From Primula veris (Eukaryota > Streptophyta > Magnoliopsida > Ericales > Primulaceae): DNA of 64,000 bases. Shown in pieces: positions 44,701-46,373 of this stretch (its first letter is position 1; each line of letters opens with the position of its first letter). The notes under the pieces were generated by a model. That model was given only the letters and a program-made list of their open reading frames with translations. It was not told where the DNA came from and ran no database searches. Made by a program: the position numbers and the translations under genes. Where the stretch lies: positions 627,501-691,500 of the forward strand of contig OY821741.1 of NCBI GenBank assembly GCA_963682055.1, written 5' to 3'.

Positions 44701-46373
44701 ACACCCTCTCGTCCAATTCCCGTTTTTCCACTCTTGTTCCGAGTTGGGGACAAACCCTTTTAATTAAGAAATTGAAATATTTGTCAAGAAACATGATATG
44801 ATCTCATAAGTAAAGGAACTCATTGAACAACAAATGATCATCAAGGCGCAAAAATCCTATATAAGTGGAGGCATTGTAACCAAACGAAGGAATGCATTAA
44901 ATTCACATCTCTCCTTTTAGATTGCTTTATATAGTACCTTTTAAGCATTCGCATGTAGCCTTAGGTCTATTACATACACCGAAAGACCCGCAAGAATTGT
45001 AAACGTCGCAAAAAACCTCGATCGCTACCCACTTCACACCCCCATCCCGTGTCTCGATCTCCCACCGCGTAATTTCCAAGTTCCCATCCGAGGTTAGTAT
45101 CTCCACCATGATCTGTATCAGAATATTAATAAAAATAACAATTTTTTAATAACATGTTAAAACCTGTCGATTCCTCACGCCTAATAGTAGGAAAGGAGAG
45201 GAACATGTATTAATAATTGGATATATCGATGCTCAAGCGATATGGAATAATTCCCAAAGGTAGTTTGGTTGCATCTTATAGACAAATAAGCTCATCCAGT
45301 TCAAAGCTTCTAGCTTATTCATGCCAGAAAAACCATAAAAACCAAAAATTCGGCCTTTAACATAGGACTCACATGCTGTGCAGTTTTAAGCAAAAAACTT
45401 AGCTTATAAGCTGCAACCAATCTATGCCTAGGGCTATTTTTCGCAGCTTTCAAGCAAATAAGCATGATTTTTTAGGCTCATCATCAAATTAGGCCATAAT
45501 CTCAAAAATAGTTTAATTTTAAACAAACAAAAAGAGCTCAAACTGTACAGCCAAACAAGCATGCACTAAATCGTTCATACTTATATTTCATCTAACCTGC
45601 GACGTGCTGGGCGGGTTATAAGACGCGAAAACGGACCCCTTCTCAATATCCTGCGTGATTATGAACCCGTTCGAGTAACCCGTATTCGTCTGGGACAACC
45701 CAATGAATTGTGAACCATCCCACGGCCCGCTTCGCCAGTGCGGTTGACCATTCCTCCACACGATGTTTTGTGGCGGCGTATCCATCGTTAATCCCAAAAC
45801 AAACTCTCCGGGCGACGGATCATCTTCCGTCCTCCACGAGGTTAAGACATATTTTTCACCTGTCTGATTATTTTGCCCAACTATGATACCCGCTATTAAA
45901 GAGTCCGATGGCACTTTGAAGCTCTCCCATAAAAAAGTTTCTGACACGTTATCTTTGAGTGAGAGTTCGCCCTGGTTGGAAATCACGGCGATTGTGTTGT
46001 TAAGGTTTGAGGTAACGTTCGTCGACCACACCGTTTTTCTTGTTCCGTCGAGTAATTTCAAGTTCCCATCATTCGTGAGGGTGAGAACCGCACTTGCATC
46101 TGAAGAGTTTAGCGGATTTTCTCGGTTCGCCACCCAAACAGGTTTGCTATAATCGATATTCTTATACCAAATCCCAATATACCGTCTAGTAGCGTTGTTG
46201 GAAGTAAAGAAACCTAGCTCGAAGGTTTCATCTGCAGAGACAAGAGTTTGTCCGATGGAGAGCTCTTGATTGCGGGTCAAAGTATCGGTTGCGACAGACT
46301 TTTCCATGAATATTATGAGTGTAACAAACAAGATGAGTCTAAATGAAGCAAAAGCAACATTCGATCTTTCCAT
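41710..46373 (-). CDS. SRLK-5: G-type lectin S-receptor-like Ser/Thr kinase with a gained intron
   Basis: Exons are 46373-45597, 45112-44938, 44756-44412, 44317-44207, 43964-43789, 43301-43091, 42780-42543, 42400-42250 and 42006-41710; total 2481 nt, 826 residues. The second and third together give 520 nt, the exact length of the single exon 2 in most paralogues. They are separated by a 181-bp insertion with GT and AG at its edges. Unspliced, it would stop translation a few codons into the insert. Domain order is as in the family, with the kinase intact: Lys540, HRD Asp637, DFG Asp655. Exon 4 is 39 bases shorter than in SRLK-2 (juxtamembrane lacks 13 residues). The EGF-like region reads CGSFGVC where others have CGPFGVC. 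Exon 1 is SRLK-3/4 type and exons 2-8 are SRLK-7 type, so the gene is chimeric. The ATG at 46373 is the only plausible start. Confidence 0.88.
44757..44937 (-). mobile_element. Transposon-like insertion acting as an intron in SRLK-5 exon 2
   Basis: A 173-bp insert (44764-44936) is bounded by an 8-bp direct repeat CCTTTTAA (44756-44763 and 44937-44944), present once in uninterrupted paralogues (compare 8466-8475). On the minus strand the junctions read AAAAG|GTACTA and TTAAAAG|GG. Each target copy supplies an AG-G, so removing 181 bases restores the exon exactly. A branch-point-like CTTAAT lies close to the acceptor. I see no terminal inverted repeats, so the class is open; 8 bp is typical of hAT elements. 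The plus strand has CTATATAAGTGG, a TATA-like motif. Confidence 0.75.

Follow-up and report, generated by a model that had tools for sequence, protein, structure and literature searches.

An insert of about 173 bp in exon 2 of SRLK-5, a gene for a G-type lectin S-receptor-like Ser/Thr kinase, is best explained, with rather better than even confidence, by one insertion with an 8-bp target duplication, the inserted piece being a transposon remnant or break-repair filler that is now a probable intron. The locus is a real, unusual and well-preserved insertion scar, and the case is a new instance of a known process, not a new process. The 64-kb window, by which we mean the whole stretch of DNA that was analysed and to which all positions refer, is a minus-strand tandem array of G-type-lectin S-receptor-like kinase genes. 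SRLK-5 (41710..46373, minus strand) has nine exons and encodes 826 aa with the candidate intron spliced; it was the sole gene scanned for Pfam domains and matches B_lectin, S_locus_glycop, PAN_2 and kinase. The plant is probably an asterid eudicot. Of 1310 database matches the best 120 were considered, and in these the most alike named proteins are those of Camellia and Actinidia, near full length and at 55-57%, whilst an unnamed 826-aa protein is 61% identical and the top bit scores include long, fusion-like proteins at 40-48%; a near-identical protein is not found among these 120, where the maximum identity is 61%.

As the sequence-only reading had claimed, exon 2 is one open exon in five paralogues, being 520 nt in SRLK-1 (1655..2174), SRLK-2 (8122..8641) and SRLK-3 (14339..14858) and 517 nt in SRLK-4 (28873..29389) and SRLK-6 (50789..51305), all on the minus strand, and is interrupted at the same codon (CLK-G, phase 1) by 181 bp in SRLK-5 and by 188 bp in SRLK-7 (53834..58682, minus strand; 827 aa when spliced). 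The candidate intron runs from GT to AG in phase 1 over 44757..44937 (minus strand, 181 nt) in SRLK-5, and the SRLK-7 copy of it over 56883..57070 (minus strand, 188 nt). The direct repeat of 8 bp that was said to bound the insert is exact, with TTAAAAGG on both sides and once only in the uncut paralogues, where the empty site reads TTAAAAGG in four of the five and, with one change, TTTAAAGG in SRLK-6. On the minus strand of SRLK-5 the upstream copy of TTAAAAGG (44937..44944) forms the exon end and the first G of the donor GT, the downstream copy (44756..44763) is the source of the acceptor AG and the first exon G, and the foreign core of 173 bp (44764..44936) lies between them; the corresponding copies in SRLK-7, again on the minus strand, are at 57070..57077 and 56882..56889. 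SRLK-6 (50789-52413) lacks, by alignment, the first 437 nt of exon 1, short matches to the SRLK-5 start region are found upstream of it at 52108-52413, and it is probably not a complete gene.

The repeat stands out against the other introns of the cluster. When 50 introns were modelled across eight genes, the direct repeat at the junctions was 8 bp in both insert copies, as against 0-3 bp in the 48 others. Among these 48 are many paralogous copies of one another, along with a few whose automatic borders are doubtful. A repeat of at least 8 bp is found in 17 (0.76%) of the 2231 AG|GT...AG|G pairs on the same strand with a spacing of 70-1000 nt, a set that includes both inserts' own pairs; an 8-bp repeat could arise by chance in under 1%. 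Short repeats beside introns have been described elsewhere: one review cites conserved Drosophila introns, in which short flanking repeats are common and 26% have one of 5 bp or more, and adds that not every study finds gained introns to be enriched in flanking repeats (PMC3443670), whilst another report finds repeats near all 213 of the 213 introns it examined when imperfect and offset repeats are counted (PMC11782384). The repeat around the insert is exact, is in register across both junctions and is single at the empty site. In composition the insert resembles the other modelled introns (GC 0.30, T 0.40).

SRLK-5 and SRLK-7 do not represent separate cases of insertion. The SRLK-7 segment 53457..57266 (minus strand) is common to SRLK-5 (41322-45133) at 98.4% over 3821 aligned bp, and therefore there was a single insertion that was later copied; two independent insertions at one codon are ruled out by the same shared segment. 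The segment begins 21 bp upstream of exon 2. Within it the copies of the insert are separated by 1 substitution and by 2 indels, of 2 and 5 bp, exons 2-9 by 16 substitutions in 1704 bp with 0 indels, introns 3-8 by 16 substitutions in 1518 bp with 2 indels, and the 3' flank by 7 substitutions in 377 bp with 3 indels. Indels thus number 7 in 2076 non-coding bp and 0 in 1704 coding bp (p 0.015), whilst substitutions are not rarer in exons (16/1704 coding against 24/2076 non-coding, p 0.63) and dN/dS is 0.45, on only 16 changes (10 and 6). The non-coding count excludes the 20 bp that immediately precede exon 2 and adjoin the breakpoint; this part is more diverged, with 9 differences in 195 bp when the first part of exon 2 is included.

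Exon 1 of SRLK-5 has a different affinity: it shares 98.6% identity with exon 1 of SRLK-3 and 98.5% with that of SRLK-4 but only 74% (over 675 bp) with that of SRLK-7, to which exons 2-9 match at 97.7-100%; exon 9 also matches SRLK-4 and SRLK-6 at 98-99%. SRLK-5 is therefore a mosaic into which the insert was copied along with the rest of the segment, and the pattern across the cluster (41710-46373 compared with 53834-58682, 15320-16096 and 29840-30616) points to gene conversion or unequal crossing-over. The array also holds isolated exon-3 fragments at 4330-4494 and 10545-10709, downstream of SRLK-2 and SRLK-3, each of 165 bp and 78% identical to SRLK-5, which are perhaps relics of older copies. 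Two retrotransposons, both typed by eye, lie in the same array. A Ty1-copia-like LTR element (20062-27812) sits in intron 4 of SRLK-4 with an ORF of 1260 aa at 22311-26093 (minus strand) and terminal repeats of roughly 1.1-1.5 kb (99.3% over 602 bp, 91.4% over 509 bp); SRLK-3 is without it, and its two stretches of matching sequence have a 7-bp overlap at the empty site. A Ty3-gypsy-like LTR element, recognised from its pol-like sequence, occupies 31415-41009 between SRLK-4 and SRLK-5 and has LTRs of 569 bp each with 3 differences and a target duplication ATATG.

The earlier proposal that the duplicate supplies the splice sites is borne out, in that it provides the AG of the acceptor and, at the donor, the exon side and the G, giving AAAAG|GT...AAAAG|GG. 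So too is the statement that the host frames are complete: removal of the insert leaves an exon of 520 nt and products of 826 aa (SRLK-5) and 827 aa (SRLK-7), and its retention brings a stop within four codons of the site, at residue 321 in SRLK-5 and 322 in SRLK-7. The insert thus shows the GT-AG borders and the restored frame of a spliceosomal (U2) intron. There are 100 frame-keeping, stop-free GT-AG pairs in SRLK-5 and 96 in SRLK-7, and AAAAG|GT...AAAAG|GG is the only one to leave exactly 520 nt. When splice sites were scored with a matrix built from 20 curated introns of the cluster, with ranges taken by leave-one-out, the donor scored 3.5, near the bottom of the range of 3.4-8.5, and 16.6% of the GTs of the strand score as well, as against the top 4.0% for the median true donor. 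The acceptor scored 3.2, in the lower half of a range of -1.3 to 15.1, and its AAG (A at -3) occurs in none of the 20 curated introns. Two other frame-keeping pairs outscore the AAAAG|GT...AAAAG|GG pair, at 9.9 and 8.6 against 6.7, and neither restores the exact exon; the best of them joins a donor 36 nt upstream (GT at 44972..44973, minus strand, in SRLK-5) to the same acceptor, giving a 217-nt intron that keeps the frame and shortens the protein by a net 12 residues; these include three cysteines that do not vary among ten aligned homologues (alignment A1). Earlier acceptors within the insert would be unusable because of an in-frame TAA just before the acceptor. The body of the insert is T-rich and a branch-point-like TTGAC (44783..44787, minus strand, in SRLK-5) places its A at a plausible 28 nt before the acceptor, a five-base degenerate motif being weak evidence.

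These scores bear on the possibility that the insert is not spliced, or not efficiently or exactly so, and that both genes are damaged. Retention would yield a soluble protein of about 320 residues with the lectin and S-locus domains only, and use of donor 44973 a form 12 residues shorter and without the three cysteines. The weak AAG acceptor, the higher-scoring upstream donor, the early stop on retention and the coding substitutions that are no rarer than non-coding ones are all as such damage would have them, but downstream of the insert both reading frames are fully open and show no indel, against 7 in the non-coding DNA, the T-rich body and the well-placed branch-point-like site speak for an intron, and the shortened protein is unlikely to be a selected product because of the invariance of the three cysteines. 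Damage of this kind seems rather unlikely, and it is likely that the insert is removed by the spliceosome as an intron.

Whether the two interrupted genes gained an intron or the five uncut ones lost it is a question that the window alone does not polarise, because in an exon-2 protein tree with three outgroup proteins SRLK-5 and SRLK-7 fall next to the outgroup and separately from the five uncut genes, with weak support (bootstrap 47). Their exon 2 is deeply split from the rest, with dS of about 0.6 to SRLK-2 and SRLK-3. An ancestral intron at this codon was accordingly looked for outside the cluster. An alignment-based search for short ORF fragments of the region returned 81 matches, and was used instead of a single-sequence search with the SRLK-5 exon-2 protein, which gave 1 match among 6 candidates; we examined the 37 fragments whose only sources were jgi, lgn and ena and excluded 44 from ncbi, nr and uniref that may be spliced gene models. 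In 36 of the 37 the alignment crosses the insert site with no insertion of at least 8 residues (0-4 seen), the uncounted fragment (P0191) starting too near the site; 36 of the 37 likewise had the motif unbroken in a simple motif search, which missed P0158. Some 16 fragments run beyond the exon end into short intron-like tails whose first codons, read by eye, fit G|GTR, and these are probably genomic DNA (P0121, P0123, P0125, P0127, P0128, P0135, P0138, P0140, P0143, P0145, P0146, P0148, P0149, P0150, P0154 and P0155). P0122, on a 64-Mb contig, may be a gene model. The read-through fragments are distant (33-49% identity) and several are close to each other, making for fewer than 16 independent lineages. 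In a search by peptide patterns for outgroup DNA, 39 genome-contig stretches and 10 viral-contig stretches matched and none was confirmed.

Taken as they stand the read-through fragments favour an empty ancestral site, and one gain in the SRLK-5/SRLK-7 lineage, which is the shortest history, is favoured over loss. It could be supposed that the intron is old and was lost exactly in the ancestor of the other five genes, by deletion between the TTAAAAGG copies or via cDNA; a deletion between short direct repeats would yield exactly the uncut sequence, and the deep split of exon 2 with a branching outside the others is what such a history would leave. Set against it are the 36 of 37 homologous fragments in which the site is uninterrupted, some 16 being apparently genomic, and we consider an old intron quite unlikely. 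Because these fragments are only 33-49% identical, a gain in the common ancestor of SRLK-1 to SRLK-7 followed by loss may have occurred, though at the cost of one event more. The insert is probably a young intron. Another intron of these genes may have a history of its own, since intron 1 (45113-45596 in SRLK-5), which interrupts the S domain in all seven SRLKs and has a junction repeat of 3 bp, is absent from all 18 of the fragments that span its site among the 37 examined and is possibly an older intron gain.

The class first given to the piece, an introner-type DNA transposon, is not supported. Introners are so recognised by a target-site duplication that contributes splice sites, and TTAAAAGG on both sides does so here. 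An 8-bp target duplication, as seen here, is likewise expected of a hAT (Ac/Ds-like) MITE. The insert is classed as neither because it has no terminal inverted repeats and the window holds no second event: aligned locally, the two 40-bp ends reach a score of 6 at best (p 0.98 over 2000 shuffles), by which a MITE with terminal inverted repeats is ruled out, and apart from the SRLK-5/SRLK-7 pair, which is one event, there is no further copy in the 64 kb. For a non-autonomous DNA transposon family of which the piece would be a single copy, and which would create introns in numerous genes of the plant, the 8-bp duplication, splice sites drawn at least partly from it, the small AT-rich insert and the exact frame are all as expected, and Introner families with target-site duplications but without terminal inverted repeats are among those reported (PMC9860276); yet the insert is without a terminal inverted repeat, the 64 kb show a single event with no other copy, and the survey of 3,325 eukaryote genomes, as given in that report, has no Introners in land plants. 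We regard such a family as very unlikely, and the narrower proposition that the insert is a land-plant Introner, a member of a mobile family without terminal inverted repeats that repeatedly uses its own 8-bp target duplications to make introns, as highly improbable.

Break-repair filler is recognised as non-homologous inserted DNA whose junctions carry a short direct repeat, which is what is seen. A transposon remnant without inverted ends and filler DNA from break repair are about equally likely, the source leaning slightly to the non-transposon side because the inverted-repeat test failed. No source sequence for the insert was found in the 64-kb window. Tandem genomic duplication was rejected, similarity to the flanking exon and the window not rising above that of shuffles (best 24.0 bits, shuffled median best 26.8), as was a piece of the neighbouring gypsy LTR, with which a AAGGCGCAA/CCTATA-like motif is shared by eye and with no significant alignment. 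As regards a tRNA-derived SINE, ARAGORN predicts no tRNA in the window, which is a coarse test; the insert ends show no A- or T-rich tail by eye, no RNA family was detected in the window at gathering scores, and a 19-base pattern of the insert in two viral contigs was taken as chance.

The history that we prefer would begin with a staggered cut in an SRLK-7-type gene, in the exon coding for the end of the S-locus-glycoprotein domain, where about 173 bp of foreign DNA would have been inserted once and the 8 bp TTAAAAGG duplicated. On either side the duplicate would have left AAAAG|G; a T, the insert's first base, would have completed the GT of the donor and the AG of the duplicate would have served as acceptor, whilst the AT-rich piece would have contributed the branch-point-like TTGAC. 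The spliceosome most likely removes the insert and so restores the old mRNA exactly, and SRLK-5 would have arisen later, when the gene was copied from a point 21 bp upstream of exon 2 onwards. Of this history the insert, its duplication, the empty sites, the common segment and the open frames are seen in the sequence, whereas splicing, gain as the direction and the gene that first carried the insert are inferred.

The sequence-only reading also held that clear cases of this kind are rare in flowering plants, which is fair as a general statement but passes over the splicing of maize Ds from exons, long since published. Ds1 and Ds insertions in maize are reportedly spliced as introns, in work said to be that of Dennis in 1988 (Adh1-Fm335), Wessler in 1991 and Giroux in 1994. 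Ac/Ds elements make an 8-bp target duplication. As with the insert, the Ds cases concern a flowering plant, a coding exon, an 8-bp target duplication and removal as an intron, the removal here being predicted from the sequence; unlike the insert, which has no terminal inverted repeat and falls in no known family, they belong to a known family with 11-bp terminal inverted repeats, a length that Ds elements are described as sharing (PMC3260210).

In the Introners of algae, protists and some animals (Gozashti et al. 2022, PMC9860276) the duplicated target supplies splice sites, as it does here, but those that the report describes form families of many copies, whereas the present case is one event in a 64-kb window. 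A route of intron gain set out in the review mentioned above, by a non-homologous piece with a short direct repeat at the splice junctions, is like the insert, and the review also tabulates transposon-derived introns in Oryza and Zea among others (PMC3443670). The potato RdRp gene is reported to have gained an intron by tandem duplication (PMC4974935) and is likewise a recent gain in a flowering plant, but in the SRLK insert no copy of the adjoining exon or of other sequence in the window can be recognised. Brassica SRK is described as having seven exons, in an account that is without codon-level positions (PMC8709392), and the small LTR element described in PMC3281118 has no bearing on the SRLK insert.

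Recent intron gains with a readable birth scar are few, above all in flowering plants. Here empty paralogue sites, a clean duplication, two host copies and intact frames come together in one cluster, and the efficiency of splicing, the source of the piece and its age are therefore testable at one locus. Should the piece belong to a family, plants would have to be counted among the lineages that have Introners.
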